Source: Pirellulaceae bacterium
GTDB taxonomy: Bacteria > Planctomycetota > Planctomycetia > Pirellulales > Pirellulaceae
Direction of reading: 5' to 3'
Length of the DNA stretch: 61,316 nucleotides
NCBI GenBank assembly: GCA_030681235.1
Contig: JAUXWY010000264.1
Coordinates: 1-61,316 of the forward strand
Below, one piece after another: positions 7,214 through 42,976 of this stretch. A program made the translations under genes and the position numbers. The notes below the pieces were generated by a model. It saw only the letters and a program-made list of their open reading frames with translations, had not been told where the DNA came from and did not search any database. Within the stretch, counting starts at the first letter, position 1. The number at the start of each line of letters is the position of its first letter.

Positions 7214-7223
7214 TCGTGTTGGC

Positions 7224-7769
7224 TTACGAAAACAGGCCCGCGATGATCATCGATCCAATGGCGGCCAGCATGGTGCCAAGGGACAGCCAACGTGTTTTCT
7301 CGGTGAGTCCCAAGAGCCCCGCCACGACAGCCAATCCAGCCGGAAACCAAGTGTACGGCATGTATCCCATGCGTCCCAATGGGATGATCGCCCATCCCCA
7401 CAGGGCCCAGCCGATCGACGACTGCAAGAAAATGGTTTGCCAAACAGCTTTGGCTTGTTGCGTTTCGTTGAATGATGACTCGTACCACGGTCGTCCCAGT
7501 TCCGGCGGCGCGAGATCGGAGGCCGCCACCGCAATTGGAATCCCGACCGGAATCCCCACAGGGATCGTCTCAAGGCTATCCGTTGTTTCAAACAATGAGG
7601 TCGAATCGTGAGGCGCTGAGCGGGGCACCTGCCGAGGAGCCACTGGAATTTTGGCCGCAATAGTCGCACGCAGCTCTGGTGCGACGAACATTCCGCAACT
7701 GGTACAACGTTCGGCATCCGGATCAAAAAGTTCGGCCGCGCAATAGGGACAATAGACATCTGTTTTCAC
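7224..7769 (-). CDS. Zinc-ribbon membrane protein
   Basis: The 181-aa protein begins with a zinc ribbon (CPYC at residues 7-10, CTSC at about 22-25). A linker with the short repeat IPVGIPVGIPI follows. The C-terminal half is hydrophobic, with about three membrane segments ending MLAAIGSMIIAGLFS. No specific family was recognised; this architecture is common for small planctomycete membrane proteins. It ends 10 bp from the convergent PSCyt gene. The rpsA terminator lies between it and rpsA upstream, so it probably has its own promoter in the 7770-7833 gap. Confidence 0.7.
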   Translation of the reverse strand: MKTDVYCPYCAAELFDPDAERCTSCGMFVAPELRATIAAKIPVAPRQVPRSAPHDSTSLFETTDSLETIPVGIPVGIPIAVAASDLAPPELGRPWYESSFNETQQAKAVWQTIFLQSSIGWALWGWAIIPLGRMGYMPYTWFPAGLAVVAGLLGLTEKTRWLSLGTMLAAIGSMIIAGLFS

Positions 7770-7833
7770 GTCGACACCTCATCCTGGCTGTGCGCAACAA
7801 GAACATGGGCGCCACAGCCGTTACCAAAGTACC

Positions 7834-7869
7834 AAAAAAAACGGAACGCGATACCTCGCGTCCCGTTTT
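7834..7869 (-). terminator. Intrinsic terminator of rpsA
   Basis: On the minus strand, a hairpin with arms AAAACGGGACGCGA and TCGCGTTCCGTTTT (one internal mismatch, 4-nt loop) ends in an uninterrupted run of eight T residues. It sits 29 bp beyond the rpsA stop codon. This is one of the clearest terminators in the window. Confidence 0.9.
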
Positions 7870-7897
7870 CTGTAGTTTTACTCGATCGAGCAAGCGA

Positions 7898-9679
7898 TTA
7901 GTTCGCGCCGGTATCGAATAGTGGACCACTGCTGCCCAAGCCGCCCTTGAGCTCCGAGTCCGATTTCTTGACCGACTTCTCGTCGGCCTGGACTTCAGCT
8001 TCTTGTTCGCTGCTCCAGTCCAAACGACGTCGCGACAAGCCGATCTTGCGTTCGTCGGTGTCGACTCGCAAGATTTTGACTTCGATCTCTTCGCCAACTT
8101 TGACGACTTGTTCTGGGTTTTCCACTTTGTCGTCGGAAAGTTCCGAGATGTGCAGCAAACCTTCCAAGCCATCTTCCAAGCCCACGAAGACACCGAAGTT
8201 CGTGATCTTGGTGACCTTGCCCTTGACCTTTTGGCCAGGTTGATAGTTGGACGGAATGTCGGTCTCCCAAGGGTCCGTGCCCATTTGCTTTAGGCCCAAC
8301 GCGATGCGGCGACGACCGGTGTCGACGGCCAAAATTCGGCATTCGACTTCTTGGCCTTTTTCCAGCATTTCGTTCGGGTGGCTGATCTTGCGCGTCCACG
8401 ACATGTCGGAGACGTGTAGCAAACCATCGATCCCTTCTTCCAACTCGACGAAGGCGCCGTAGTTGGTCAGGTTGCGAACTTTGCCCTTGACCAACATGTT
8501 GAGAGGATAACGATCTTCGACGTTGTCCCAAGGATTGGCCAACGTCTGCTTCATGCCCAAGGACATCTGTTCGCCCTTGCGGTCGATGCCCAAGACGCAC
8601 ACGTCGATCATGTCGCCAATCTGAACCAATTCGTTCGGGTGATTGACGCGTTTGACCCACGACATCTCGCTGATGTGGACCAAGCCTTCGATGCCTGGCT
8701 CCAACTTGACGAAAGCGCCGTAGCTCATCACGTTGACAACTTCGCCCTTTTGGATCGAAGCAACCGGATACTTGTTCTCGACATTGTCCCAAGGATTGGG
8801 CAACATCTGCTTCATACCCAGGGCGATCTTGACTCGGTCGCGGTCGATGTTCAAAACCTGAACTTCGACTTCTTGATCGATCGAGACCATCTCGGAGGGG
8901 CGTTGAATACGAGTGTGGCTCATGTCGGTGATGTGCAACAAACCGTCGATCCCGCCCAAGTCGACGAACGCGCCGAAGTCGGCGATGTTCTTGACGATAC
9001 CCTTGCGGATCTGGCCAACTTCCAATTCCTTGAGCAGTTTTTGCTGAGCGAATTGGCGTTCTTTTTCGATCAACGAGCGGCGGCTGACGACGATGTTGCG
9101 ACGTTGTTCGTCGATCTTCAACACTTCGCATTGCACCACGCGGCCAATGTAGTCGGCGATGTCGTTGGGACGACGAATATCGACTTGGCTGGCTGGCAAA
9201 AAGACATGGACACCGATATCGACCAACAACCCGCCCTTGATCTTGCGGATGACGGTTCCGGTGACGATCTTGCCTTCTTCGACTTCTTGGATGACTCGGC
9301 GCCAGTGAATGATGTGATCCGCTTTTCGCTTGCTGATGCTGATCAAGCCTTGCGGATCGTCCGTTCCACCCAACTCATCTTCGAGATCTTCGATCAGAAC
9401 CTGAACCTTTTGGCCAACTTCCGGCTGCGGTTCATTGGGGTCCCACTCGTTGCGGGGAATATTGCCTTCGCTCTTGAAGCCGATATCGACCAACACAACC
9501 TCGGCGTCGACTTTGACGATCGTACCTACGACGATCTTATTCAACTGAAAGTCGCCATCGACATCTTCTTCTTGGCCGACAATCACAGTGTCCAGAAGCG
9601 AATCATCTGAAAACAGATCTGCCAATTGTTGGGTAATGGAATCATCTTCCAAATCCCGAATCAATACACGATTAACCAT
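7898..9679 (-). CDS. rpsA: 30S ribosomal protein S1
   Basis: The 593-aa protein has six S1 RNA-binding domains. The first two are divergent (VDIGFKSEGNIP, VDIGVHVFLPASQV). The last four are canonical, each with a G-[AV]-F-V and L-L/V-H-I/V-S/T core, for example NYGAFVELEEGIDGLLHVS. Six domains and this length match full-size bacterial S1, which helps ribosomes bind mRNA and unfold leader structure. The start ATG at 9679 gives MVNRVLIRDLEDD. No Shine-Dalgarno-like purine run precedes it, as is known for rpsA in other bacteria, where S1 autoregulates. The gene is monocistronic by position and followed by a strong terminator. Confidence 0.97.
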   Translation of the reverse strand: MVNRVLIRDLEDDSITQQLADLFSDDSLLDTVIVGQEEDVDGDFQLNKIVVGTIVKVDAEVVLVDIGFKSEGNIPRNEWDPNEPQPEVGQKVQVLIEDLEDELGGTDDPQGLISISKRKADHIIHWRRVIQEVEEGKIVTGTVIRKIKGGLLVDIGVHVFLPASQVDIRRPNDIADYIGRVVQCEVLKIDEQRRNIVVSRRSLIEKERQFAQQKLLKELEVGQIRKGIVKNIADFGAFVDLGGIDGLLHITDMSHTRIQRPSEMVSIDQEVEVQVLNIDRDRVKIALGMKQMLPNPWDNVENKYPVASIQKGEVVNVMSYGAFVKLEPGIEGLVHISEMSWVKRVNHPNELVQIGDMIDVCVLGIDRKGEQMSLGMKQTLANPWDNVEDRYPLNMLVKGKVRNLTNYGAFVELEEGIDGLLHVSDMSWTRKISHPNEMLEKGQEVECRILAVDTGRRRIALGLKQMGTDPWETDIPSNYQPGQKVKGKVTKITNFGVFVGLEDGLEGLLHISELSDDKVENPEQVVKVGEEIEVKILRVDTDERKIGLSRRRLDWSSEQEAEVQADEKSVKKSDSELKGGLGSSGPLFDTGAN

Positions 9680-10018
9680 TCAACTAACTACTTTCTGTCG
9701 GCTCGCTGGCTTCGTCCGACGTTTTTACAGGGTAGCATCCGAATACTGCACTTGGCCGATACGTACCAAGCCGCACCCGAACGACAGTAGAAATGAATCT
9801 TTCTATCGCGAGTTGTATCGATCCTCGGGCCGCCAGCACTGAATCGGACCTGAGGAAACCCGACAATCCTAGCGAAAATGCGCCCTTTCGCAAGGCGAAA
9901 GGGCGGGAATTAACCTCTGAAAGCGCCGTCATGCCGCCTCTGTGCTGAGATGTCCAGTGTTAATTTCACGAAAACCAATGATTTGGCGACGATCGGATCG
10001 TTCGACCGTCCCCCCCTT

Positions 10019-10078
10019 GTCGCGAAACTCCCCGTCGCGAAACTCCCCGTCGCGAAACTTGCCGTCGCGAAACTTGCC
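10019..10078. repeat. Four tandem copies of a 15-bp unit
   Basis: Units at 10019, 10034, 10049 and 10064 read GTCGCGAAACTCCCC (twice) then GTCGCGAAACTTGCC (twice). The arrangement suggests two successive duplications. It lies in the rpsA/rpmI divergent region. Confidence 0.9.
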
Positions 10079-10255
10079 AAGAGTTTCGGCGCCGGTCTGG
10101 GCATTTTCTTGAGTTGACACTTGCAAAAGTCGAAATCAACCTTGGCGAGTGGGCCCGAATTGGCGAAAAATGCAGCAAAACCCCTTTTGTTGGGACTGAA
10201 GTTCAGCTAGACTGCCCCGCCACCCATTTCATCCTCGGGATACGCGCCGCACCAA

Positions 10256-10299
10256 TTGTTGGGCGGCGCAGTGAAAGTTGTTGGGCGGCGCAGCGAAAG
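10256..10299 (+). repeat. Tandem 22-bp duplication just upstream of rpmI
   Basis: The two units, 10256-10277 and 10278-10299, differ at one position (GCAGTGAAAG versus GCAGCGAAAG). The duplication ends 12 bp before the rpmI start codon, so it forms the ribosome-binding part of the leader. It could affect translation of rpmI. Confidence 0.85.
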
Positions 10300-10311
10300 G
10301 TTTGAGTTGTC

Positions 10312-10515
10312 ATGCCTAAAATGAAAACACACAAAGGCGTTAAGAAACGCTTCCGATTGTCCGCCACCGGCAAGGTCATGCACCGTGCCGCTGGGACGAG
10401 CCACTTGAACTGCGGCACCAGCAAAAAGCGTCGCCGCAACTTGCGTGGTAGCGGTACCGCGGATGTCGTCAACGAGACGATGATCCAACGGGCGTTGGGC
10501 AAATACAGCAGCTAA
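10312..10515 (+). CDS. rpmI: 50S ribosomal protein L35
   Basis: The 67-aa basic protein has the L35 pattern: MPKMKTHKGVKKRFRLSATG, then HLNCGTSKKRRRNLRGS. Length is normal for the family. It precedes rplT with a 164-bp gap, as in the conserved infC-rpmI-rplT block, although infC is not adjacent here. No strong Shine-Dalgarno is seen; the 22-bp tandem duplication occupies the leader. Confidence 0.95.
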   Translation: MPKMKTHKGVKKRFRLSATGKVMHRAAGTSHLNCGTSKKRRRNLRGSGTADVVNETMIQRALGKYSS

Positions 10516-12289: not shown

Positions 12290-14362
12290 ATGATCGTTTC
12301 TTGGAAGTGGTTGCAACGCTACATCAACTTGAATCAACTGAGCGACACGGAAGCAGCCGAACGACTCAGCTTGAGCGGACTGAATCACGAAAGCACGCAG
12401 GTCCTGGCCGGCGATTGGGCGATCGATTTGGAAGTCACCAGCAATCGACCGGATTGTTTGGCACATTTGGGCGTGGCTCGCGAGATTGGCGTGTTGTTTG
12501 ATCGACCGCTGCAAATCCCTGATCCGCAACCAACAGCCAAGGGTCCGGCGATCGAGACCTTGACCTCGGTACAAGTCGAATCACCCGAGCTCTGCCCACG
12601 CTACACCGCGCGATTGATTCGCGGAGTGAAGATTGGCCCCAGTCCCGCGTGGCTACAAGAACTGTTGGCCAACGCAACCGGCGATCCTTCTCAATTCAAG
12701 TCGATCAACAACGTCGCGGACATTACCAACTTTGTCATGTTGGAATGTGGCCAGCCGTTGCACGCTTTTGATTTTGATCGGTTGCACGAACAAAAAATCA
12801 TCGTTCGCGCCGCTCGCGATGGCGAGGTCTTGGAGGCTATCGATCACAAGAGCTACGCCCTACAGTCCGGCATGTGCGTGATTGCGGATGCTAAACAACC
12901 GGTCGCGCTGGCCGGGATCATGGGCGGCGCCGCGACAGAAATCACCGAACAGACCGTGAATGTGTTGATCGAATCGGCCGAGTTCGCGCCGGGTTCGGTG
13001 CGGAACACGTCGCGACGTTTGAAGTTGGCGTCGGACTCGTCTTATCGCTTCGAGCGAACGGTCGATCCAGTGGGGATTGATTGGGCCAGTCGTCGCTGTT
13101 GTCAATTGATCTTGGAACATTGTGGTGGGCAATTGTGTGCGGGCGTGATCGATGTTGGGCCAGCGCCCGTCGCTCGTCCGCCATTTCGTTTTCGCTTGGA
13201 CCAGATCGCTCGGATCTTGGGGATCGAGATCCCTCCCGCGACCGTGCAGCGAATCTTGGAGGCCTTGGGGCTGCGCGTCGAAGCCGAGAGTGGACCAAGC
13301 CCGGTTTGGCAGGTCACACCTCCGGCGTGGCGACGCGATCTGTCGCGAGAAGCGGACTTGGTGGAAGAGATCGCTCGGATTCATGGTTACGACAAGATCC
13401 CGGAAGACCATGCGGTGCCGATGGCGGTTTCGCAAACCACCCCACTCGATATGTCGAGCCAACGCGTGCGCCATGTGTTGACGGCAGCCGGATTGTCGGA
13501 AGCCTTGTCACCTAGCTTGGTCCCAGCGGTCTTGTCCGATTTGTACAGCCCGTGGAGCGATCGCGCCACGCTGACCACTTTACAACCGATGCTTGGTGTA
13601 TTGGACACCAAATTCTGGAACACCGCCGGGCCGGTGGATTGCGTGCGTCGCAGCTTGATCCCCAGTCTCCTGGAACTGCGCCGCATCAATGAATTCCGCC
13701 ACAACTTGCCCATCGAATTGTTCGAGCTCGCCAAAGTGTATCTGCCCGGCGAAACGTTTCCATCCGAACCGACGATGATCGGCGTGTGCAGCGGTCGATC
13801 TTTGCTGGACATGAAGAGCGTGATGGCCGAAGTGTTCTCGACGATCCAGCGTGGCTTGAACGTTCGAGTGGAAGTGGTGACGGACAGCTTCTTTTCGCCA
13901 GGCTGCGGATTGCGGTACTGGATTGGAGATCGATTGTTAGGGTTGCTGGGCGAGACGTCGCGCAGCACTCAGAAGAAGATGAAATTGCGCCAGACTTGTG
14001 TGGTGGGCGAGTTCTTCCTGGAGTCGCTGGTCGATGCCCTTCAAGTGATCCCGCAGGCTCAGCGGCAAAGTTTGTATCCTGCGATCGAACGCGACTTGAA
14101 CTTTATTTTGGAGACGAAAGTGCGTTGGTCCGAATTGGAGTCAACCGTGCGTGCCGTCGGCGGACCTTGGCTTGAACAAGTGGCTTATCGTGAAACCTAT
14201 ATCGACGCGACACGCGATGGCGAAGGCAAGAAGCGAGTCTTATTGACCATGACTCTGCGGTCGTTGGATGAAACGCTCACCGGCAAACAGGCCGACGACA
14301 TTTGCCAAAAAGTCATCGGAGCATGCACAGATAAACTGGCCGCCAAATTGGTGGCCGGGTAG
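12290..14362 (+). CDS. pheT: Phenylalanyl-tRNA synthetase beta subunit, lacking the N-terminal tRNA-binding OB domain
   Basis: The 690-aa protein is about 100 residues shorter than typical bacterial PheT. The B1 start (SWKWLQRYINLNQLSD) runs through VLAGDW directly into AIDLEVTSNRPDCLAHLGVA. The EMAP/tRNA-binding OB domain normally found there is missing. The B3/B4 editing region (SINNVADITNFVMLECGQ, PLHAFDFDRL), B5 (WRRDLSREADLVEEIARIHG) and a C-terminal FDX-ACB-like domain (about 597-690) are present. The frame is uninterrupted. I infer a functional, streamlined enzyme. Confidence 0.94.
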   Translation: MIVSWKWLQRYINLNQLSDTEAAERLSLSGLNHESTQVLAGDWAIDLEVTSNRPDCLAHLGVAREIGVLFDRPLQIPDPQPTAKGPAIETLTSVQVESPELCPRYTARLIRGVKIGPSPAWLQELLANATGDPSQFKSINNVADITNFVMLECGQPLHAFDFDRLHEQKIIVRAARDGEVLEAIDHKSYALQSGMCVIADAKQPVALAGIMGGAATEITEQTVNVLIESAEFAPGSVRNTSRRLKLASDSSYRFERTVDPVGIDWASRRCCQLILEHCGGQLCAGVIDVGPAPVARPPFRFRLDQIARILGIEIPPATVQRILEALGLRVEAESGPSPVWQVTPPAWRRDLSREADLVEEIARIHGYDKIPEDHAVPMAVSQTTPLDMSSQRVRHVLTAAGLSEALSPSLVPAVLSDLYSPWSDRATLTTLQPMLGVLDTKFWNTAGPVDCVRRSLIPSLLELRRINEFRHNLPIELFELAKVYLPGETFPSEPTMIGVCSGRSLLDMKSVMAEVFSTIQRGLNVRVEVVTDSFFSPGCGLRYWIGDRLLGLLGETSRSTQKKMKLRQTCVVGEFFLESLVDALQVIPQAQRQSLYPAIERDLNFILETKVRWSELESTVRAVGGPWLEQVAYRETYIDATRDGEGKKRVLLTMTLRSLDETLTGKQADDICQKVIGACTDKLAAKLVAG

Positions 14363-14502
14363 TCGGCAAAAAAGGTTTTAACCGTTCACGCCCAGAGCCG
14401 GGAGAGTTGGTTAACCGTGTGGCCCGAGCAAATTTGGCGAATTCCAATTTGGCGAAGAATAACAATTCCGATGGCCAAAATTGCAGGGGCACGCGATTTT
14501 TT

Positions 14503-14671
14503 TTGGAACACTAATCTTCGCTAATCGGCGCTAATCAAAAACACAGGGCACGCAGCTACGGCACACGATATTTTGTTACAGAACACCCGATAGCAGCCCC
14601 AAAAAATTACCTGCTCCGCCTTCCTGCCTAGTTTTTTCATTAGTGTCGATCAGCGAAGATCAGTGTTCCAA
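14503..14671. repeat. Inverted repeat 1 inside copy A
   Basis: The left arm begins TTGGAACACTAATCTTCGCT at 14503. The right arm ends as its near reverse complement at 14671. A handful of mismatches occur over about 40 bp. The same arrangement is visible in copy B at about 19754-19922. Confidence 0.8.
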
Positions 14672-14779
14672 ATTCCTCGTACTTTCATCTTGGTTAATCC
14701 GAGAGTCCCTATCGTCTTATCCACCGAGACACCGAGTGCCTTGAGCCGACACGCGACAAAATGCGTGCGTTTGGTTATT

Positions 14780-14952
14780 CCCACGGATGGCAAAGCCGAA
14801 CTGCGGATAAAAAGTCGGCCGACACGTTCTTGACCAACGGACCGTGTCCAACCGCAATGGTCGAACGTCCGAGACTCCACTTTAGCGGGGTTAATTTCGA
14901 AACCGCATGCAGCGAACGTATTGATCCGTGGTTCGGCTTTGCCATCCGTGGG
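14780..14952. repeat. Inverted repeat 2 inside copy A
   Basis: The 29-bp arms (core CCACGGATGGCAAAGCCGAA) at 14780-14808 and 14924-14952 match in 27 positions. In copy B the arms are at 20033-20061 and 20177-20205. Confidence 0.85.
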
Positions 14953-15128
14953 AAGTCCGCCAGCTATTCAAATGATTGTCGATGGTTCACACGCAGTTAA
15001 GATATGACGAGGCTGTTTCCCTAAAATGGGCCTGACCGGCCTAACCCTATAGAACGCTGACTATTTCGCGTGGCTTGCAATTTGCCCAAAGACTTTCAGG
15101 CCGCTCAGCCCCCTTTACGAACAACGCC

Positions 15129-15180
15129 TTGACTTAGCGAAACCTTTCGCTTACATTGACTTAGCGAAGGCTTTCGCTTG
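15129..15180 (+). promoter_or_regulatory. Promoter and paired operator candidates of the first BlaI/M56 unit
   Basis: A promoter-like pair, TTGACT (15129-15134) and TACATT (15152-15157), has a 17-bp spacer. Two near-palindromes, TTAGCGAAACCTTTCGCTTA at 15134-15153 and TTAGCGAAGGCTTTCGCTTG at 15161-15180, start 27 bp apart. The first fills the spacer and the second lies just downstream of the -10. This is where a BlaI-type dimer would be expected to repress. The assignment as BlaI sites is inference. Confidence 0.65.
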
Positions 15181-15214
15181 CCAATGACGGGGCTATCGTT
15201 TCGGAGACAAGATC

Positions 15215-15601
15215 ATGCGGGAATTGGGTTCTTCTCAGCCGACGGCGGTCGAGCTAGAAATTTTGCGAATTCTCTGGGAGCTGGGTTCCAGCCCTGTGCG
15301 AGAAATTCACGCTCGGCTGGCAGAGGCCAAGGGGACAAACTACTCGACGACCGTAAAAATGCTCTCGGTGATGCTGACCAAAGGGTTGGTCAAACGGAAC
15401 GAGGACGCGACGCCGCATATCTATCGCGCGGCGATGACTCGCGAGCGGGCCGCGAAGAAATTTCTCACGGAACTGATTGAGAAAGTCTATGACGGGTCGG
15501 CCATGAGTCTTGTGCTCCAGGCACTGGCCAGCGGCAAAGCATCGAAGTTGGAAATTGATGAAGCCCGAAAGTTGCTCGATGAAATGGAGGGCAAGTCATG
15601 A
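15215..15601 (+). CDS. BlaI/MecI/CopY family transcriptional repressor
   Basis: The 128-aa protein matches the BlaI family in length and pattern. It has a winged-helix N-terminus (LEILRILWELGSSPVREIHARL, then NYSTTVKMLSVMLTKGLV) and a helical dimerisation tail containing the basic region where M56 peptidases cleave in related systems. ATG 15215 follows GGAGAC. It overlaps the M56 gene by ATGA (15598-15601), so the repressor and its presumed sensor-protease are translationally coupled. In classical systems the M56 protein inactivates BlaI upon a signal. The regulated target may simply be this operon, since no beta-lactamase is nearby. Confidence 0.9.
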   Translation: MRELGSSQPTAVELEILRILWELGSSPVREIHARLAEAKGTNYSTTVKMLSVMLTKGLVKRNEDATPHIYRAAMTRERAAKKFLTELIEKVYDGSAMSLVLQALASGKASKLEIDEARKLLDEMEGKS

Positions 15602-18600
15602 ACCCACTTCTGGCTTTATCATCACCGTTTTTCGAATCCATTGTCGAACGTCTCGGTTGGGTATTGGTGCATTCGCTGTGGCAGTTCGCGATTGTGGCGC
15701 TGCTGGCGTGGGTGATTGTCCGGGCGATGCGACGGAGTTCGTCGGCGCTGCGTTATGGCGTGCTAGTGACTGCGATGGCAGTCATGGTGTCCGCTCCGAT
15801 TGCTTCGTCGATATGGATTTCAAGCGATTCGCCGTTGGAACATTCGGCCGACCCCGTGGCATCCGCATCAGCTGACGAAACAGTCGCCGCGAATGGGCTG
15901 GAGACTGCAGGGGCCTGGCTCGCCAATAAGTCGCCCATCGCAGACGATACACCGATTGAAGGTCCAATCCGGGAGCTCGCGCCAACGAGCATCCCATCCA
16001 AACTTCTACCCGCAACGCCACCGCTTTCGGCCAGCGAAACTCCACCGTCGCTTTTCTGGTCGGCGCGAGCAAAGGCGATGTTGCAACCGTGGCTCGCATG
16101 GATCGTGGCTGTTTGGTGCCTGGGCGTTGTTCTCTGTTCGGCCCGTCCGTTATTGGGCTGGCACACGCTCCGGCGATTGAAGCGAGTGGGCGTGTCTCCG
16201 GTGTCAGATGAAGTGCTGGCCGCGTTACGTGGAGCGTCAGAACGGCTCGGCCTGCGTCGTTCGGTGCAACTACTGCAATCGACGCTCGCTCAAGTACCGA
16301 TGTTGGTCGGTTATTTCCGTCCGGTGATCCTGCTGCCGATCAGCCTGATGACAAGCATCCCTGCGACTCAGTTGGACGCGATCCTGACTCACGAGTTGGC
16401 GCACATACAACGGCACGATTTTATCGTGAACCTGCTGCAAACGCTGGTCGAAACGTTCTTCTTTTATCATCCGGCCGTATGGTGGTTGTCGCGGCAAATT
16501 CGCGTCGAGCGCGAACACTGCTGCGATGACCTTGTGGTCAAATTGCTTGGCAACCGCATCGAATACGGCCGAGCGCTGGTGGCAATCGAACAGCTGCGCG
16601 GTCGGGGCTCGGTCCTCGCTATTGGAGCCGCTGACGGCTCGCTATTGTCGCGAGTGCGACGCATCGTCGGTTTCCATTCCACTGGTAACGTCACATCGGC
16701 CGTCGAGCGATGGCCTGCGGCTTTATTGGTTCTGGCCCTAATCGCCACTACCGTTCTGTTGACTTTGAATTGGAACTTGTCAAAGAACCTGGCGGACAAC
16801 TCCAACGAAGACCAGCCATCTGAGACCTTCACTCTGATTCAACTAGATCCGCCTCCGGTCGTGGGCGATTTCTCGAACGCCGATGATCCCGACGTGTTGC
16901 TCGATCAGTTGGCGAAGAGTCAGTTGCCCGGTCTGGTGCCGATGACAGGTGGCAAATTCTTTCAACAACCCGGAGCACCACCGCAAGCAAACGACGTCAG
17001 CCTTTGGGAAACCCAATACGCTGGCAACGACCAACTCGATCCGCGCATCCGCCGGTTGATTGAATTGGGCGACCGCGCCGTTCCGTCAGTTCATCAGCGA
17101 TTGAACGGTCTAACGGCGTCGGAGCTCCTGGCAACGCATTTGACGCTCGTGCTGGGATCGGTCGGGACGACCGAGTCCGTCCCGGTGCTCATCAAATTAA
17201 TGAAGACGGCTCCGATTGCCGCGAGCGACGGAACGCAGTCGATCGAAGAGTTTCAGAAAAACTATCAGGCGAGTTTGACGCAGATCGCCGTGACGTCGGC
17301 TCTGTGGAAGCTGACCGGACGCAAACATCTCTTCACACCGGACCAATGGGAAAAATGGTGGCAATCAGTCAAACCGGATTTCGTCGTTCCGCTCGAACGC
17401 ACGCGTCCCGAGTTTGTAACGCGCGTCACACCGGAACGAGTTGAAGCTCTAGTTGACGAGTTGGCAACAAACGAATTGGCGGCGCGCGAGCGGTTGATCT
17501 CGCTTGGACCTGCGGCGATCCCGCATTTGCTAAACGTGCTCAGCGTCGCCGAGTCGCTTCGTGCCCCAGCGTCGCCCAGTGACGCGGCTGCGATCCGATT
17601 GGCATGGGTCGTCGACGAACTCGGGGCAACCGACAAACTGTCGGCGAAGTTGGGACGCGACTACTTCACGCATCGATTTTCGGACGATGACACCTATGCC
17701 GGAATGTATCCCATCGACGAGGACGCGTTGGGTCGTGCGCTTAGCTATTGCTCATTCGCCGATTTCTGCTCGATCTACGTGGAAGCAGACAGTCGGGGGA
17801 ACGTTCCGGAGCACATGACCCACATCAAGTGGCCGTATGATATCTATTCGGCATATTGCCGCCGCTTTAGCAAATTGGTTGCACGAGATACCGGCGGCCG
17901 ATCGGACGATCCTCATTGGAGAAATGTCGTCCCGGCTGAGAATCCCTCGGACGAAATCGCGAATGCGGTTCCGATCCTCCTGGCGGCATTGAAAGACAAA
18001 CGGGCCGAAACACGAATTTCGGCTAGCAAGCTCGCAGACGCCATCGGCTTTTGCACAACGGCCAAGCCCGAGACACTCATTGTCGCGCTGCGAGATGCTT
18101 GGCTGGCGGAGGCCGATGAAAAGGTCCGACCTGAAATCGGCTTTGCAATGTGCCGCTTTCAAACTCCATTCGTCATGCAGGAAATCTCCCAGGGCTTGCT
18201 GTCGGATCGTCCTGAGATCGTCAGCGACTGTGCGGGATTGATGGACTGGATTCCGATCGAACTCAACGACGAAACGCGATTCGCATTTGATCGTCTTGTC
18301 GAACTGACTCGTCATGAAGACGATCGCATCCGTCGCGGTGCCACGCGAAGCCTGGCCTCCAAAGCTCCGCAATTGCTGGGGCCAGAGTTCGAGCGGCTCT
18401 GCACCGACAAAGTCAACGACATTCGCGAAGCCTGCACACTGGCCTTGCGAAGCGACCCCGATCCGCAGCACGCCGACATCCTCTTCAAACTGGCCGATGA
18501 TGCCGAGCAAACGATTCGCGAATCGGCCTTCTCGTCGATCAGCAATTTGAATCACCCCCCGTCGATGAAACGGCTGCTGCCTTATCTCCGCGAAACGAAG

Positions 18601-19644
18601 GTACATGGCTACGCGGTCTCCGCACTGGCCAGCATGGGAGGCAAAGATGCGATACCCTTGATGATGGGCGAACTCGAATCAGGCAACGACGTCGGCGGCA
18701 TGGTCTATCAACATCTGCGCCGCCTGACCGGTGAAGACTTTGAAGAAAAGCCCGAACCGTGGCTCGCCTGGTGGATGAAGAACAATTCCGCACCAGTCTC
18801 GTTCCCGAACAGATTGACTTCGCAGGCGAGTTCCGGAACAGGGCCTGGAAACGAGAAGACCGACCCGGCGAAGCAATCTGTTGAGATTCGCTTGGTCGGA
18901 GGTCCGAATAGCGAGCCTCTGCCGAAGGTCAAAGTCGAGTTCACGAGCGGAGGCAGTGACAGGAAGTCGTTTGGAACATTCACCACTGATGACGCCGGTT
19001 TGCTCAAGGCGAGTCTGCCGGTTGGTTTCTATTACCTGCATCTGACGTCGGACCAAGAGTTGCCGTACCTGCCGGTCGAATATCTGTGGGACAAAGAGAG
19101 CCGCGGCCCGCGCCCGGATCTGAGTCTGAACGTGACGAAGAGCGGCGTTGAGAAATGGCTGGCCGGAAAAAAACGGGACGAGGGATACGAACCGCCCGCT
19201 GAGCCCAACAACTTGCCTCGGATCACCTACCGGCTGCTCCCCGCCTGCGAACTCACCCTGCGAGCGGCTGACGCGGACACGGGCGAGGGCTTGCCAGGAG
19301 TGGAGTTTTACGAAGAAAATGCCGTCGGTGAAGATTGGGCGCATGCGATCTGCGGACAGAACATCCGTTCGATATTCAGTTGGGATCGCGAGCCGGTCGC
19401 AGCCGCTGCGAATCACACGGACCAGGACGGCAACTTCCGGCGGCTGGTCAGCGCGAACGCTGGTTTCACATACGGCGTGTGGAAACCGCCGGCGGGATAT
19501 GAGGCGGTCACCCCCGGCGAAGTCGAGATCGACATTCGGTACGGACAGCTTCGTGCCGAGCATATCTTCAAGTTCCGCCGCATTGGAAGGGAAGTGCGCG
19601 TCGAGCTCGAGAAAGAGAAGAGCATGCTCGACGAGCCAATGTGA
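15598..19644 (+). CDS. M56 (BlaR1-like) membrane metallopeptidase fused to HEAT repeats and an Ig-like C-terminal region
   Basis: The 1348-aa protein has N-terminal membrane helices (about 15-45 and 50-75), a further helix at about 165-185, and an M56 zinc site, H265-ELA-H269, with E306 in VEREHCCDD as likely third ligand. A membrane helix at about 375-395 exports the remainder. Residues about 480-1080 are HEAT-like helical repeats. From about 1094 there are beta-rich segments (VEIRLVGGPNSEPLPKVKVE) resembling carboxypeptidase-regulatory or Ig-like folds. No penicillin-binding sensor domain is visible, so the ligand is probably a protein or polymer. The gene is coupled to the blaI-like gene and bracketed by 560-bp direct repeats. 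Confidence 0.85.
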   Translation: MNPLLALSSPFFESIVERLGWVLVHSLWQFAIVALLAWVIVRAMRRSSSALRYGVLVTAMAVMVSAPIASSIWISSDSPLEHSADPVASASADETVAANGLETAGAWLANKSPIADDTPIEGPIRELAPTSIPSKLLPATPPLSASETPPSLFWSARAKAMLQPWLAWIVAVWCLGVVLCSARPLLGWHTLRRLKRVGVSPVSDEVLAALRGASERLGLRRSVQLLQSTLAQVPMLVGYFRPVILLPISLMTSIPATQLDAILTHELAHIQRHDFIVNLLQTLVETFFFYHPAVWWLSRQIRVEREHCCDDLVVKLLGNRIEYGRALVAIEQLRGRGSVLAIGAADGSLLSRVRRIVGFHSTGNVTSAVERWPAALLVLALIATTVLLTLNWNLSKNLADNSNEDQPSETFTLIQLDPPPVVGDFSNADDPDVLLDQLAKSQLPGLVPMTGGKFFQQPGAPPQANDVSLWETQYAGNDQLDPRIRRLIELGDRAVPSVHQRLNGLTASELLATHLTLVLGSVGTTESVPVLIKLMKTAPIAASDGTQSIEEFQKNYQASLTQIAVTSALWKLTGRKHLFTPDQWEKWWQSVKPDFVVPLERTRPEFVTRVTPERVEALVDELATNELAARERLISLGPAAIPHLLNVLSVAESLRAPASPSDAAAIRLAWVVDELGATDKLSAKLGRDYFTHRFSDDDTYAGMYPIDEDALGRALSYCSFADFCSIYVEADSRGNVPEHMTHIKWPYDIYSAYCRRFSKLVARDTGGRSDDPHWRNVVPAENPSDEIANAVPILLAALKDKRAETRISASKLADAIGFCTTAKPETLIVALRDAWLAEADEKVRPEIGFAMCRFQTPFVMQEISQGLLSDRPEIVSDCAGLMDWIPIELNDETRFAFDRLVELTRHEDDRIRRGATRSLASKAPQLLGPEFERLCTDKVNDIREACTLALRSDPDPQHADILFKLADDAEQTIRESAFSSISNLNHPPSMKRLLPYLRETKVHGYAVSALASMGGKDAIPLMMGELESGNDVGGMVYQHLRRLTGEDFEEKPEPWLAWWMKNNSAPVSFPNRLTSQASSGTGPGNEKTDPAKQSVEIRLVGGPNSEPLPKVKVEFTSGGSDRKSFGTFTTDDAGLLKASLPVGFYYLHLTSDQELPYLPVEYLWDKESRGPRPDLSLNVTKSGVEKWLAGKKRDEGYEPPAEPNNLPRITYRLLPACELTLRAADADTGEGLPGVEFYEENAVGEDWAHAICGQNIRSIFSWDREPVAAAANHTDQDGNFRRLVSANAGFTYGVWKPPAGYEAVTPGEVEIDIRYGQLRAEHIFKFRRIGREVRVELEKEKSMLDEPM

Positions 19645-20355
19645 TTGACGTTCACCGTGACCAACCGCACGAACCACAGCAAATTTGGCGAATTCCAACT
19701 TGGCAAAAAATGACGGTTCCAACCGCCAAAATTGCAGCGGCACGCGAAATTTTTTGGAACACTAATCGACGCTAATCGGCACTAATCAAAAACACAGCGA
19801 ACGCAGTTACGGCACGAGATATTTTGTTGCCGAACATCCAATAGTAGCTCCAATAATATTTTCGACCTCACCTTCCTGCCTAGTTTTTTCATTAGTGTCG
19901 ATCAGCGAAGATGAGTGTTCCAAATCCCTCTTACTTTCACCTTGGGTTTATCCGAGAGTTCATATCGTCCTATCCACCGAGACGCCGAATGCCTTGAGTC
20001 GACACGCGACAAAATGCGTGCGTTTGGTTATTCCCACGGATGGCAAAGCCGAACTGCGGATGAAAAGTCGGCCGACACTTCCTTGACCAACGGACCGTGT
20101 CCAACCGCAATGGTCTCACGTCCGAGACTCCACTTCGGCGGGGCTCATTTCGAAACCGCATGCAGCGAACGTATTCATCCGTGGTTCGGCTTTGCCATCC
20201 GTGGGAAGTCCGCCAGCCATTCGAATGATCGTCTCTGGTGGAGGGTATGTCATGAGAAGATCTGCTACAACAAGGCTGGGCCAAGAGCAGTGAACCTCGC
20301 CGTGAGTTGTCCCGTCTAGAGCATGACACTAACAGCACGTTGTTGGCGAGTGTCT
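19645..20355. other. Non-coding region after the first M56 gene
   Basis: Apart from copy B of the 560-bp repeat (19678-20238), the remaining 117 bp before the tRNA-like genes show no recognisable gene or strong terminator. Confidence 0.6.
19678..20238 (+). repeat. ~560-bp direct repeat, copy B (family R2)
   Basis: This is the second copy of the element at 14427-14985, in the same orientation, starting 33 bp after the M56 stop codon. Both internal inverted repeats are retained. The pair encloses one complete blaI/M56 operon with its promoter. Confidence 0.88.
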
Positions 20356-20425
20356 AGGAATGTTCGCCTGGGAGCGGACTCGGTCTCCAAAACCGAAGAA
20401 TAGTGTTCGAATCACTGCGTTCCTG
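20356..20425 (+). tRNA. tRNA-Trp(CCA)-like gene with a short D arm
   Basis: The acceptor strands 20356-20362 (AGGAATG) and 20418-20424 (CGTTCCT) pair over 7 bp with one G-U; the discriminator is G425. The anticodon arm 20380-20396 has stem TCGGT/ACCGA and loop CTCCAAA, giving anticodon CCA. The T arm 20401-20417 is regular. The D arm is reduced to about 14 nt with a 6-nt loop, and the total is only 70 nt. The 3' CCA is not encoded. It could be a functional divergent tRNA or a decaying copy. Confidence 0.6.
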
Positions 20426-20528
20426 CTTTTAGGCAAGCGTTTGATCGATGTGGTTCCGATGGCTCGAGGTCTTCTGCGTTCGCAGTTTTGGCTTCGTGTT
20501 CCGCAAACGGGTTCCAATAGCCGCACCG

Positions 20529-20601
20529 ATTGAAGTAGCTCAGTGGATAGAGCAACAGGCTGTTAACCTGTATGTCACGGGTTCGATTCCCGTCTGACGC
20601 A
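20529..20601 (+). tRNA. tRNA-Asn(GTT)-like gene with a non-pairing acceptor stem
   Basis: From position 8 onward the cloverleaf is regular: D arm GCTCAGTGGATAGAGC, anticodon stem ACAGG/CCTGT with loop CTGTTAA (anticodon GTT), T arm ACGGG/CCCGT. The 3' acceptor strand CTGACGC (20594-20600) needs GCGTCAG at the 5' end, but the sequence there is ATTGAAG. Only the two innermost pairs and one wobble remain. The 5' strand looks replaced. It may be a pseudogene or the remnant of an integration event at a tRNA gene. Confidence 0.55.
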
Positions 20602-22131: not shown

Positions 22132-24288
22132 TTACTCAATCCGAATCATTATAAATGACGAGGTGTCTTGAGTGGCAGCAGGTGCTGACCAGCGTGTAAA
22201 AAAATCCAATCCACGGTGTTTTGCTTCGGCAACAACAGCCTTCGTATAGACAATACCTGTGTCAATCATCAACACCTCTTTTGGCCGGAGCTGCCTATTA
22301 AAACAAACTTTTTGATATGCGATCTCAGGAATTTGAATTTCTCGCCCTCGTGCGACGCCCGCTCGAACAGTCGAATTTGTCACTCCCTTTAAATCGGCTC
22401 TATCGATAGTGCCTGATAGAATGAACTGGCCATCGTCCGTCCGTTCGACCTTGATTTTCATTGTTGTTCCGATGTCAATACTAGTTTTGATCGGAGTGGC
22501 TAACGCCGGTTCATCTTCGGTCACATCGAATCCGGTCAGAAATTCTTGGGACGTGGCGTCGCTGATCGTTCCATCTTGTCCGACTTTTAGTTTCAAATGG
22601 GGAGCGGTAAACACGTTTGATCTTTGGTTACCTTTGGCCATTAGAATTATCTGATAAGCGGTGTTTTCGGACATCGCACCAAAGGTGACAGGGTAGCGAA
22701 TTGTTTGGTTACTCCAGGCGGTTGTTGTCAACGGCGAACCCGACTCCTTTTCCTCGGCCAATTTTGAATCTTGCGAAAGAGTTGGGAAAGAAGTCGTGAT
22801 CGAATACAAATCCATGAGATTGTACGCTTTGTTCATGTCCTGCTCTACCAATGTCAAGAATCTGACGTCAACCTTTAAGGTGTCATCAACTTTATCGTCT
22901 TGGCCGCCAATAGCAACACTTGCGTCTTTCGGACTGGCAAATGGAGGTTCATCTTCCACGTTGACCTGATCGGCCGACGAATTTGCTGCGGTTGGCTCCG
23001 CCAGTGGTGACGCAGGCGGTTTCACCTGGACGGCGGAAACGCCGCCCACGATCACGCAGCAAGCGACCATGACGGAAACGAATAACGTCGTCCATCGAAG
23101 TTCTGTTTTCAGCATCATGTTTCTCCCGGGGTTAAGTAATTCAGTAACACGAGTTTCCAGGCTCCATTGCCTTCCAAACAGCCCCAACAGTGATAAGGCT
23201 GGCCGAACCGATCCGCCGCGTTCCGTAAGCTCCAACAACGTCCGAGCAAAGTCAGCGGGGCTCGCATGTCTCAGCACGTAGTTGTCGCAGACTTCTTCTC
23301 GAGACCGCGCCAACACCTGATTAAGCATCAGCACACCCGGATGAAACCACCACACGATTCCCGCGATTTGCTGCAAGACATGGTTCCAATGATCCCGTCG
23401 CACAATGTGCGCCCCCTCATGGATCAGCACACTGGTCAGATCCTGCTCCGAGAGTTCACGGAGCAGTGCTTCGGGCAACACCACAACGGGCCGCAGGACT
23501 CCCCAGACAACTGGGGATGGAATGGACTGGCTGGTCCAAATAGGCGGCAATTCACGAACACCTAAAGTTGTTCGCAGGCGATGCTGCATGGACGCCGATA
23601 ATGCTTCCGTTGGAAGTTGCCGCAGGGGTTTGACTGCCACATAAAACTGACGTCGTCGTGACAAAAGTCGAATCGCACGAATGATCGCACCACCAAACCA
23701 AACGCCCAGAAAACACACTAGTCCAAAGAGCGTCCACGATCCCAAACTCGAGTCGCGAAACCTGTCGCGGGTCTCGGTGGCAAGTTGGTCACTTTGCTCC
23801 TCCGTGTTCGTTCGCGCAAGTTTCGTTTTGTCGGACGGTATCGACGCACCATCATTTTTTTGCGGTGATTGTTCGGTGGAAGTAACCCCTGCCGTATTGG
23901 TATCGCTGCGAACAAGCCACTGATCTGAGAGCATCGGTAACGCTGAACTCGATGGCTCTAGCCGTGCGCCATGTCTGGCTGAACCATCAAAGGCTGGTAA
24001 TCTATCTTGACCGGTTGGCGTCTCGACGTCAGCCAATGTGGGTGCCGCCGACGGTTTAAAAAGACTGTCCGAACCGGAGGTAATTGAAACGGTCATCAAC
24101 GCGTGCCAGCGCAGTGGAAGCAGCCATGTCACCAGCGGGCTCATCAGCACTATCGCGATGCCGGTCAATGCGATTGTGTGTCGCATGACTGCGCTTTGCC
24201 GTACCACGAAACTCATGGCCAAGGCGACGACACTGATCGCAGTGACCTGAATCAGCAGCAAGAGGAAGTAAGTTTGGACGGTGATCAT
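22132..24288 (-). CDS. M56 (BlaR1-like) metallopeptidase with a secretin-like C-terminal domain
   Basis: The 718-aa protein begins with membrane helices (about 5-60), followed by a Ser/Thr-rich loop. The zinc site is H290-EGA-H294, with E in ARSREEVCDNY as third ligand. A membrane helix (about 395-420) precedes an exported region. The last ~250 residues show elements like the secretin beta domain: KVDVRFLTL, VFTAPHLKLKVGQDGTISDA, and a final KEVLMIDTGIV strand. That resemblance is by eye. No beta-lactam sensor is visible. The gene overlaps the blaI-like gene by 4 bp and converges on the slipin-like gene. Confidence 0.82.
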   Translation of the reverse strand: MITVQTYFLLLLIQVTAISVVALAMSFVVRQSAVMRHTIALTGIAIVLMSPLVTWLLPLRWHALMTVSITSGSDSLFKPSAAPTLADVETPTGQDRLPAFDGSARHGARLEPSSSALPMLSDQWLVRSDTNTAGVTSTEQSPQKNDGASIPSDKTKLARTNTEEQSDQLATETRDRFRDSSLGSWTLFGLVCFLGVWFGGAIIRAIRLLSRRRQFYVAVKPLRQLPTEALSASMQHRLRTTLGVRELPPIWTSQSIPSPVVWGVLRPVVVLPEALLRELSEQDLTSVLIHEGAHIVRRDHWNHVLQQIAGIVWWFHPGVLMLNQVLARSREEVCDNYVLRHASPADFARTLLELTERGGSVRPALSLLGLFGRQWSLETRVTELLNPGRNMMLKTELRWTTLFVSVMVACCVIVGGVSAVQVKPPASPLAEPTAANSSADQVNVEDEPPFASPKDASVAIGGQDDKVDDTLKVDVRFLTLVEQDMNKAYNLMDLYSITTSFPTLSQDSKLAEEKESGSPLTTTAWSNQTIRYPVTFGAMSENTAYQIILMAKGNQRSNVFTAPHLKLKVGQDGTISDATSQEFLTGFDVTEDEPALATPIKTSIDIGTTMKIKVERTDDGQFILSGTIDRADLKGVTNSTVRAGVARGREIQIPEIAYQKVCFNRQLRPKEVLMIDTGIVYTKAVVAEAKHRGLDFFTRWSAPAATQDTSSFIMIRIE

Positions 24289-24674
24289 GTCTTCTTTCCC
24301 TTTGCTTGTTTGATCAGTTCTCGAATGCGGGCCGATTCCTCGGCGGACACGGTGCCTTGGTTCAACAGGGCTAGAACCAACCCTTCGGCCGACCCGTCAA
24401 AGACCGTGTCGATCAACCGTCGCACGCACTGTTGTTGCGTTGCCGACCGAGAAACGGCCGCCGAAAATAGCACGCCGCCGTCAGCAACCGTTCGCGTCAA
24501 CCAGCCCTTATCCTCCAGTCGCACCAACAGCGTATGAACCGTGTTGCGGCTGACGCCCCGCCGTTGTTCCAGGACCTTCCAGACGTCCGCTGCAGAACAT
24601 TTTCCTCGATCCCAAACCACCGTCATTATCTCATGCTGCACATCGGACAGCGGTGGCAAGTCATCCTCTGACAT
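24285..24674 (-). CDS. BlaI/MecI/CopY family transcriptional repressor (second copy)
   Basis: The 129-aa protein starts at ATG 24674 (MSEDDLPPLSDVQHEIM), preceded by AAAGGA. A longer frame to 24788 would add 38 unrelated residues and run through the operator. The winged helix is recognisable (HEIMTVVWDRGKCSAADVW, SRNTVHTLLVRLEDKGWL), as is the dimerisation tail. It is coupled to the M56 gene by a 4-bp overlap. A palindromic operator candidate lies upstream at 24761-24779. It is only distantly similar to the BlaI-like protein at 15215. Confidence 0.92.
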   Translation of the reverse strand: MSEDDLPPLSDVQHEIMTVVWDRGKCSAADVWKVLEQRRGVSRNTVHTLLVRLEDKGWLTRTVADGGVLFSAAVSRSATQQQCVRRLIDTVFDGSAEGLVLALLNQGTVSAEESARIRELIKQAKGKKT

Positions 24675-24759
24675 CAAATCGTCCTTTCCGGTCGGTCGGC
24701 GACCAAGAATGAGATTCCGTTTCGCAGGGCGCCTACATCTGTCGTCATGCGATCTCGGT

Positions 24760-26054: not shown

Positions 26055-26070
26055 GTCTGGCGGGCGTCTG

Positions 26071-26190
26071 ATAGTAGAGCGAGCGCCCCGATCGCTCCGG
26101 CAGCAGACAGACACAAGGTCGAGCGGTGGCGAGACAGCACCCGGCCCCAACCGAGTTCATCTCGGTTGAGCCAAGGATTCACCTCTATGT
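26071..26190 (+). repeat. Dispersed ~120-bp repeat R3, copy 1
   Basis: It starts ATAGTAGAGCGAGCGCCCCG and includes the hairpin CAACCGAGTTCATCTCGGTTG. It is directly followed by copy 2 with a period of 126 bp. Confidence 0.88.
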
Positions 26191-26196
26191 ACGATG

Positions 26197-26314
26197 ATAG
26201 TAGAGCGAGCGCCCCGATCGCTCCGACCGCAGACCGACACAAGGTCGAGCGGTGGCGAGACAGCACCCGGCCCCAACCGAGTTCATCTCGGTTGAGCCAA
26301 GGATTCACCACTAC
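26197..26314 (+). repeat. Dispersed ~120-bp repeat R3, copy 2
   Basis: It is nearly identical to copy 1, with differences around 26225-26237 and at the 3' end. It has the same internal 8-bp hairpin. Confidence 0.88.
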
Positions 26315-26332
26315 GACGCACACGTCAACCGC

Positions 26333-26485
26333 ACGGGAAGCGGTCGAGGGACAGACTTGTTTAGCAAGTGAATTCAACCGAGACCGCAACAGTTAACGCT
26401 CGCAAGCGCGAGGTCCGTACCCAAGATGAAAACCGATCGGCCTACTTGCAGACGTATCTGAAGCAAAGTCTGTTCTACGGCCTTC
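26333..26485 (+). repeat. Extended R3 module, plus-strand copy
   Basis: Blocks such as CGGTCGAGGGACAGACTTGT, ACCGAGACCGCAAC, CTCGCAAGC, GTACCCAAGAT and GTTCTACGGCC recur in the same order on the minus strand at 42735-42920. Confidence 0.7.
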
Positions 26486-26581
26486 CAACCCAGACCCGCT
26501 GTTGTAGCAAGAAACCGAAACAATCCGCCGAGTAAATCGGCGGGATTTTCCTTATTCATAGTGCTGAATCAGCACTCTACT

Positions 26582-26667
26582 GACACAAGGTCGAGCGGTG
26601 GCGAGACCGCACCCGGCCCCATCCGAGTTCATCTCGGTTGAGCCACGGATTCACCACTATGTACGAT
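26582..26667 (+). repeat. Dispersed repeat R3, copy 3 (partial)
   Basis: It lacks the first ~40 bp of the unit and has substitutions (GAGACCGCACC, CCATCCGAG). The end TTCACCACTATGTACGATCG matches copy 1. Confidence 0.85.
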
Positions 26668-42166: not shown

Positions 42167-42489
42167 GGGTATATCCTCACATCAATACGGCGATGACAAG
42201 CTTTCGACACAACGTCAGAAATAAAGAACGTCCTTGCACTCGACGTTATCATAGCAGAAGCTCACATACAGTCCATCTCTTTCTCCGGGAGTTTAATGTC
42301 GATTGTTTTTTTGCGTTTCTAGCTTTCAAACTTACGCTCGAACGGGAACAAACCCGTTGGGGATCGTGCGTCGTCGAGGGTTGTTTCGGGGTCCAAATCG
42401 TGCGGGCTTGCGAGCGTGATCCGTTGCGGTCTCGGTGGAGTTGATTTGCTAAACAAGCTTGCCACTCGACCGCTTTCACCGCTGGCCAT

Positions 42490-42613
42490 CGTTCCTAGTG
42501 GTGAATCCTTGGCTCAACCGAGATGAACTCGGTTGGGGCCGGGTGCGGTCTCGCCACCGCTGAACTCGTGTCGATCTGCGGTCGGAGCGATCGGGGCGAT
42601 CGCTCTACTATCA
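42490..42613 (-). repeat. Dispersed repeat R3, inverted copy 4
   Basis: Its reverse complement matches 26197-26314 almost completely, including the start ATAGTAGAGCG and the CAACCGAG/CTCGGTTG hairpin. Confidence 0.88.
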
Positions 42614-42712
42614 TCGTTCCTAGTGGTGAATCCTTGGCGCAACCGAGATGAACTCGGTTGGGGCCGGGTGCAGTTTCGCCACCGCTCGACCTTGTGTCGG
42701 TGGGGCGCTGAT
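42614..42712 (-). repeat. Dispersed repeat R3, inverted copy 5 (partial)
   Basis: A tandem continuation of copy 4 ending at GACCTTGTGTCGGTGG; it lacks the outer ~30 bp. Confidence 0.85.
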
Positions 42713-42734
42713 TCATTACTACGGCCCAGATGCC

Positions 42735-42920
42735 TGAGGGTTTTGGCGGCCGTAGAACCACCCCAACTTCAGACAAACCTTCGAGCAGGCCGCAATGGGT
42801 TTGATCTTGGGTACAAACCGTGAGCGTCGTGCGTCCCTGCTTGCGAGACTCAAGCGTTGCGGTCTCGGTAGAGTTGTTTTGCTAAACAAGTCTGTCCCTC
42901 GACCGCTTTCACCGCTGGCA
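42735..42920 (-). repeat. Extended R3 module, inverted copy
   Basis: Blocks matching the reverse complement of 26333-26485 occur in the same order. A further partial copy (GTTGCGGTCTCGGTGGAGTT) lies at about 42405-42489. Confidence 0.7.
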
Positions 42921-42976
42921 ATCTTTCCTAGTGGTGAATCCTTGGCTCAACCGAGACAAGCTCGGCAGGGGCCTAC
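42921..42976 (-). repeat. Dispersed repeat R3, inverted copy 6 (short)
   Basis: CCTAGTGGTGAATCCTTGGC and TCAACCGAGACAAGCTCGG match the end of the R3 unit, with substitutions in the hairpin loop. Confidence 0.8.

Follow-up and report, generated by a model that had tools for sequence, protein, structure and literature searches.

A BlaI/M56 operon between two co-oriented mosaics of palindromic repeats in a Pirellulaceae genome, and iteron-armed repeats around GxxExxY nuclease genes

Introduction

The described systems that come closest to the locus considered here are mosaics of intergenic palindromes, miniature and composite transposons, and the BlaI/BlaR1 type of regulatory operon; the locus itself is an operon for a BlaI-type repressor and an M56 membrane peptidase that stands between two long direct repeats in a Pirellulaceae bacterium, on the 61,316-nt contig JAUXWY010000264.1 (the window, meaning the whole stretch analysed). 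Bacterial interspersed mosaic elements (BIMEs) and the repetitive extragenic palindromes (REP/REPIN) that go with RAYT genes are palindromic, mostly intergenic, multi-copy and joined as mosaics (compare PMC3733652), and the three repeat families that make up each direct repeat, A, B and C, share these traits. Their units are, however, longer (136, 172 and ~300 bp), and the seven RAYT loci of this genome have no A, B or C nearby. Family B also recalls a miniature inverted-repeat transposable element (MITE), being short (~172 bp) and geneless, with 40-nt terminal inverted arms that are 85-88% complementary and several dispersed copies; unlike a MITE it has periodic arms and no established target duplication, and where a MITE depends on a DDE transposase, B would presumably be partnered by a GxxExxY nuclease. 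A whole operon enclosed by co-oriented copies recalls a composite transposon (insertion sequence-gene-insertion sequence), but the copies carry no recognised transposase and no second location of the unit was found. The operon resembles BlaI/BlaR1 (MecI/MecR1) in joining a BlaI-type repressor, operator-like palindromes and an overlapping M56 gene, and differs in having HEAT repeats in place of a recognised beta-lactam sensor domain. A limited search of the open-access literature returned no description of a mosaic pair around a complete operon and private to one locus, and no match for BlaI with M56 in Planctomycetes.

If the bracket is a recombination cassette, transposase-free intergenic palindromes can shuttle whole regulatory operons in Planctomycetes. 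A wider lead outweighs the bracket: genes of GxxExxY, a small nuclease family with no assigned role, stand between iteron-armed repeats far above the rate of controls, in planctomycetes and at single loci of several other phyla, an association that opens both the origin of these repeats and the function of the nuclease to direct testing.

An operon between two direct copies

The two copies lie at 14427-14985 and 19678-20238, in the same orientation and with their starts 5251 bp apart, and are identical at 499 of 559 positions (89.3%; by BLAST 89.0% over 562 columns). Transitions account for 36 of the 60 differences, and copy 2 carries two single-base insertions. Forced alignment beyond the copies yields 42% identity over 14986-15030 and 31% over 14379-14426. 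The co-oriented pair described in an earlier note on this DNA is therefore real, and its members are far from being as divergent as unrelated intergenic sequence. Across 43 loci (697,471 bases, comprising the window, 40 loci from its own and related genomes and two pheT loci) it is the sole direct pair of at least 250 bp, at least 80% identity and 2-10 kb spacing, widely spaced pairs being under-sampled because most of these loci span 6-20 kb. The chance that two randomly placed copies would fall so close together and co-oriented is ~0.0008.

Exactly one complete operon is enclosed, as the note had it: a blaI-type gene, preceded by two operator-like palindromes and overlapping the M56 gene by 4 bp. 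Both internal inverted repeats that it ascribed to each copy are likewise present. In copy 1 the first has arms of 40 nt at 14502-14541/14633-14672 (88% complementary; 85% in copy 2) and the second arms of 34 nt at 14778-14811/14921-14954 (91%; 94% in copy 2). Nor is a transposase recognised in either copy by a scan of open reading frames (ORFs) and Pfam: copy 1 has no ORF of 80 amino acids (aa) or more, and for the four ORFs that overlap copy 2 (134, 122, 354 and 97 aa) Pfam gives no family at a threshold of 0.001. The proposed edges had to be moved outwards, since 14427 is not an element edge (A of copy 1 starts at 14379) and likeness to C at the right end of copy 1, judged by eye, reaches ~15006. 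The features of the locus are listed below, where G000 is the bacterium's own assembly, C-numbers are places on its contigs and L-numbers, used later, are extracted loci.

12290..14362, plus strand: pheT, left neighbour (profile/similarity match)
14379..14498, plus strand: element A, copy 1, one of the ~136-bp hairpins, truncated on the right where B joins it (84% identity with the A consensus across 120 positions)
14502..14672, plus strand: element B, copy 1, geneless, with 40-nt terminal inverted arms (inverted repeat; related copies at C230 and C497)
14689..15006, plus strand: element C, copy 1, of the ~300-bp family, with 34-nt inverted arms (right end by eye)
15135..15178, plus strand: two operator-like palindromes, TAGCGAAACCTTTCGCT and TAGCGAAGGCTTTCGCT, starting at 15135 and 15162, upstream of blaI
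15215..15601, plus strand: blaI-type repressor, 128 aa (PF03965, 3.6e-25)
15598..19644, plus strand: membrane peptidase of the M56 type with fused HEAT repeats, 1348 aa (PF05569, 1.1e-32; PF13646, 1.2e-11)
19674..19746, plus strand: element A, copy 2, with a decayed left arm (85% identity with positions 45-117 of the A consensus)
19753..19924, plus strand: element B, copy 2 (alignment and inverted repeat)
19933..20239, plus strand: element C, copy 2, arms 20031-20064/20174-20207, right end shorter than in copy 1 (92% to copy 1)
20356..20426, plus strand: tRNA-Trp, right neighbour (ARAGORN; absent from the Rfam output)
20534-20595: tRNA (Rfam only)

Three families joined as a mosaic

The repeat is a mosaic of three palindromic non-coding families, each also found apart from the others. 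A comparison of the whole repeat with its own genome, with 40 of 106 candidates scored, gives at least 64 matches; most are partial, and they pile up on three segments. Family A has at least 40 matching rows in G000 (40 of 94 candidates scored), and a 26-base pattern drawn from it, with up to three mismatches, matches 85 times there (45 plus 40) against 0 for the reversed control; among three congeners, G002 has 9 matches, G003 one and G001 none. Its consensus is an imperfect hairpin of ~136 bp (single-strand DNA fold z -4.2, with 0 of 200 shuffles as good), and a gene caller made for this work places it between genes in 27 of 30 loci (L041 and L042 being the same copy). A strict position 3' of genes was considered and rejected, as only 20 of the 30 loci have A 3' of a co-oriented gene. 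At C343:6205-6751 in the same genome A forms a tandem triple with a period of 234 bp.

Family B, ~172 bp, is found at full length at the two window sites and at C230, with a half site at C497 (7/7 candidates scored), and matches to its arms occur at many places in G001. The left arm of copy 1 contains three iterons of ~10 nt, CACTAATC/CGCTAATC/CGCTAATC. Both window copies and the one at C230 are embedded in other repeats or remnants. At C230 B stands, by eye, behind an A remnant; the complete A-B-C is not there, and this shared junction implies that the joining of A to B is older than the window pair. Family C, in which the 34-nt arms are internal, is represented in G000 by two full copies plus partial ones and in G002 by at least 38 rows of at least 69 bases (40 of 81 candidates scored), where an alignment of 13 G002, 4 G000 and the two window copies shows the family extending on both sides beyond the boundaries that it has in the window. 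What has expanded differs between these sister species: A stands at 85 pattern matches in G000 and 9 in G002, C at two full copies and partial ones in G000 and at least 38 rows in G002.

The complete A-B-C is found at no further place in the own assembly, a lower bound given its 521 contigs and 92% completeness. The repeat material does consist of dispersed families that have multiplied separately in different lineages, but the earlier suggestion that the repeat was itself mobile is not supported for a single 560-bp unit, the repeat being a three-family mosaic. Spread driven by RAYT was discarded, as A, B and C are absent from 7/7 PF01797 loci up to 1.5 kb on each side, and so was a plasmid or phage origin of the mosaic, which has no match in a plasmid or phage collection. 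The mosaic looks native to this lineage, judging by its families' absence from all 12 examined loci with relatives of the M56 protein.

Divergence between the two copies is uneven. Identity is 84% in the core of A, 86% in B (79% in its middle), 92-93% in the left part and middle of C and 84% at its right end, and the inverted arms are the best-kept parts, at 92.5% and 97.5% for B and 97.1% for each arm of C. Such a pattern suggests constraint on the palindromes, or conversion between them, and because of it the pair is not simply datable. Copy 2 is shorter than copy 1 at both ends and is a subset of it.

The operon and its relatives

By analogy with the BlaI/BlaR1 family, the BlaI protein would most likely repress its own operon through the twin palindromes, and the M56 protein would most likely lift that repression by proteolysis. 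A role in beta-lactam response is not supported, since no BlaR1 penicillin-binding sensor domain is recognised: the Pfam scan reports only the M56 and HEAT families, and the score for NCBIfam blaR1_generic, 103.9, falls far below its cut-off of 400.

A search of 25 genomes with the M56 protein, 15 of which gave any match, found the best relative outside the own genome at 45% identity (G010); in the three congener assemblies matches are only 28-35% identical, though PheT is 75-89% identical. Among the best 16 of 80 rows from public genomes, two match the HEAT part (74% and 70%) and 14 the peptidase part (49-67%). Twelve loci that hold M56 relatives were examined, and BlaI is matched in ten of them, at 84-93% in seven and at 73%, 69% and 30% in the others; A, B and C were found in none of the 12, several of which are short contigs. 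A scan of 13 sequences, one of them the window, detects the operator-like palindrome pattern in 12 (L199 being the miss), and the operator-to-blaI distance was compared for loci among those with M56 relatives. Among L193-L202, which are public planctomycete contigs, seven loci combine a BlaI of 84-93% identity and a common operator-like palindrome with an M56 protein whose peptidase part is ~51-60% identical and whose regions behind the peptidase vary from protein to protein. On these comparisons the operon is accessory and its presence patchy, and because its relatives in other Planctomycetes lack A, B and C it seems to move, or to be lost, without these repeats.

Bracketing is not a trait of this operon type. 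Of 80 BlaI/M56 operons elsewhere, 49 could be tested, and 47 of these have no flank repeat; measured from real ORF ends, repeats occur at 1/49 within 600 bp and 2/49 within 1500 bp. One of the two, L263 from Planctomyces sp. isolate new MAG-38, has direct repeats of 140 bp (81%) at 5194-5333 and 10374-10513 around blaI-M56 (5612-10305), with further partial copies on the left. Each repeat is a palindrome with CACGAAA-type iteron arms, and the M56 protein is 38% identical to that of the window. One case in 49 lies near the control rate of 3/393, hence no enrichment, but it shows that iteron-type repeats are able to bracket such an operon. The repeat of L206, 50 nt long, is of a different kind and recurs elsewhere in that locus, and the bracket candidate L194, a 220-nt direct repeat near a related M56 gene, was rejected as a repeated coding segment inside one ORF.

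The site behind pheT in congeners

The converse situation, the same operon at this site without repeats in all relatives, is not what the congeners present: none of them carries it behind pheT in the stretches examined, and the flanking order is not kept in any of the three. In G002 and G003 the SPFH gene, which in the window stands past the tRNAs, does not share a contig with pheT, and in G001 the two are ~220 kb apart. Behind pheT of G001 a 222-bp unit is repeated 5.2 times, followed by a GxxExxY gene (TIGR04256, 3.5e-38), by 4.8 repeats of a 221-bp unit and then by gyrA (PF00521, 1.4e-141); within this pheT-gyrA interval (L115:2472-5340) the ~222-bp units of both arrays are palindromic. In the 3 kb 3' of pheT, triple iterons of the B type are present in G000 and G001 and in neither G002 nor G003. 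Two species thus share B-type repeats on the 3' side of pheT and differ in what lies between these repeats. A tRNA-targeted island was considered and rejected, as tRNA-Trp reads away from the cassette and has its 3' end on the far side.

How the bracket may have arisen

Our leading, if still tentative, reading is that a single local event produced the bracket, the operon having been captured when mosaic copies took part in homologous recombination. Palindromic elements would have accumulated behind pheT, and a circle carrying the operon and one mosaic copy, to take an example route, would have recombined into the resident copy there; unequal exchange between mosaic copies is an alternative route. 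Either would leave the operon between two native non-coding A-B-C copies, and neither amounts to a composite transposon of the insertion-sequence type. This reading draws on a pair that is 89% identical, co-oriented and the only one of its kind in 697 kb, on the occurrence of A, B and C elsewhere without the full set, on the patchiness of the operon and on the lack of a transposase or RAYT link. Recombination between the copies could in principle delete or amplify the operon, slowly at 89% identity, and the mosaic is probably a fossil or a slow substrate.

Several observations count against capture. These assemblies yielded neither a donor molecule nor an empty site, and neither an excision junction nor a second cassette, absences that are not firm because the own assembly is a 521-contig draft, 92% complete, and the congeners are drafts of 84-93%. 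Module identity ranges from 79% to 97.5%, which gives no single clean date unless constraint or conversion differs between modules; copy 2 lacks the ends of copy 1, where simple integration should leave two complete copies, barring later decay; and the GC content of the operon (~57%) is close to that of its surroundings.

It is possible, with a lower probability, that A-B-C simply hopped, the copy behind pheT seeding the one behind the M56 stop, so that the operon was never mobile with the mosaic. The recognisable A begins 17 positions past the end of pheT in copy 1 and 30 positions past the end of M56 in copy 2, and both copies therefore begin just behind a stop codon, as such a hop would have it; the intergenic placing of A in 27 of 30 loci and the nesting of copy 2 within copy 1 agree. 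Free hopping should, however, scatter full copies, and there are just two, 5.25 kb apart (~0.0008), nor does A, 3' of a co-oriented gene in just 20 of 30 loci, obey a strict target rule.

More doubtful is the insertion of the operon between two units of a tandem mosaic array behind pheT. Arrays of this sort are suggested by the GxxExxY gene between B-type arrays behind pheT in G001, by the B-type triple iterons 3' of pheT in G000 and G001 but not in G002 or G003, and by the tandem triple of A at C343 with its 234-bp period; yet G000 holds no array of the full mosaic, and neither integration machinery nor a target duplication was found for the operon. The remaining rival, in which the operon is cargo of iteron elements linked to GxxExxY genes, depends on the evidence that follows.

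Iteron-armed repeats around GxxExxY genes

PF13366, the family of GxxExxY, gave 54 rows in 24 genomes, of which 42 were tested: all 33 above 100 bits and 9 of the 21 weaker ones, the remainder being mostly fragments. When 600-bp flanks were compared, left against right, at E <= 1e-6, similarity was found at 21 of 32 strong genes (15 direct, 6 inverted only; one of the 33 had too little flank) and at 2 of the 9 weaker ones, whereas of 393 control windows taken from other parts of these loci 3 showed it (Fisher p 1.3e-24, with overlapping control windows treated as independent). Short ORFs with intergenic space on both sides scored 3/42, all in two loci and with a gene caller trained on the window only. 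With real ORF ends, flank repeats were seen at none of the 28 pheT genes (of 29) and none of the 7 M56 loci (of 24) that allowed the comparison, and RAYT genes had a flank match in 2/5. A fixed-position version of the test, in which some assumed gene ends are wrong, gave 15/29 for GxxExxY, 0/28 for pheT, 0/23 for M56 and 0/10 for BlaI/M56.

Matching flanks were inspected at 19 of the 21 genes, and in 18 tandem iterons of 9-10 nt, usually three, can be seen by eye (L337 is the exception). A blind periodicity test (lag 8-11, 15/20) found them on any side at 21/32 GxxExxY genes against 18/304 controls, and on both sides at 12/32 against 1/304; moving the threshold to 14, 16 or 17 of 20 changes the any-side figures to 27, 18 and 6 of 32 genes and to 56, 7 and 3 of 304 controls. 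Judged by lag-10 periodicity at the same threshold of 15, the left arms of both window B copies pass, at 15/20 (copy 1) and 16/20 (copy 2), and the right arms fall short, at 13/20 and 12/20. The arms of A and C fail; C was set aside as an iteron-arm element on this ground, though by eye its arm has CACGGAT and TGCGGAT 20 nt apart. Window B has no GxxExxY gene between its arms, the five PF13366 places of G000 being on other contigs. At one of these, C107, the sole flank pair searched genome-wide, the only full copies are those on either side of the gene, with three partial ones elsewhere, and the repeats are of another iteron type (TTTGCG). The hexamers CTAATC/GATTAG were rejected as a general mark of GxxExxY loci, occurring at 1/30 of them and at 1/29 pheT loci, both in G001.

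Residues E27, D67, E77-x-K79 and Q91 are invariant in 11 aligned GxxExxY proteins; we take them to be those expected of a PD-(D/E)XK nuclease, the family being assigned by its Pfam name. In an independent set, ten further loci (seven plasmid records and three viral contigs) had a flank match in 8/10 at E <= 1e-3, with no control; the match at L389, which has an upstream arm only, by eye, is coding against coding and is discounted, leaving seven of ten, and at L384 and L392 the arms are seen by eye only. In a Bacteroides finegoldii plasmid record (L388:1433-1910) the gene fits closely between inverted arms, each with about three iterons of 9-10 nt. In this species it stands between radA and the gene for an FAD-protein, which in Parabacteroides are separated by 13 nt; in Phocaeicola another insert occupies the place, without a GxxExxY match, so that this spot varies generally. 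In Sphingomonas a GxxExxY gene separates fabD from fabG, two genes with 30 nt between them in Rhizobium. Both sites are cases of presence or absence between genera, too distant for exact ends to be read. A limited open-access search found no description of the association between GxxExxY genes and repeats and only an unrelated mention of the iteron strings; GxxExxY is mentioned in that literature as a gene neighbouring a reverse transcriptase (RT).

GxxExxY genes with iteron-arm palindromes may be minimal mobile elements that cross phyla, with B a geneless derivative and the window and L263 a cargo form, an idea that we hold to be rather improbable and rate higher than we otherwise would because of L263. 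For the bracket itself, a nuclease acting in trans to mobilise or duplicate gene-enclosing repeat pairs is very unlikely: the passing B left arms, the 21/32 genes with matching flanks, the invariant catalytic residues, the bracketed operon of L263 (140-bp direct repeats, 81%, with iteron arms) and C107, whose full copies flank one gene as A-B-C do here, would fit it, but the C107 repeats are of the TTTGCG type, A, C and the right arms of B (13 and 12 of 20) fail the iteron test, the operon does not lie within a B palindrome, and 47/49 BlaI/M56 operons have no flank repeat.

Other features of the window

A second, divergent BlaI/M56 pair lies on the minus strand at 22132-24677, ~2 kb past copy 2 and beyond the tRNAs and the SPFH gene; its M56 protein is 29% identical to the bracketed one. 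Two more local repeats are present in three copies each, at 26069-26659 (119 nt) and 42399-42973 (142 nt), and the former has matches of ~30 nt behind pheT in congener G002.

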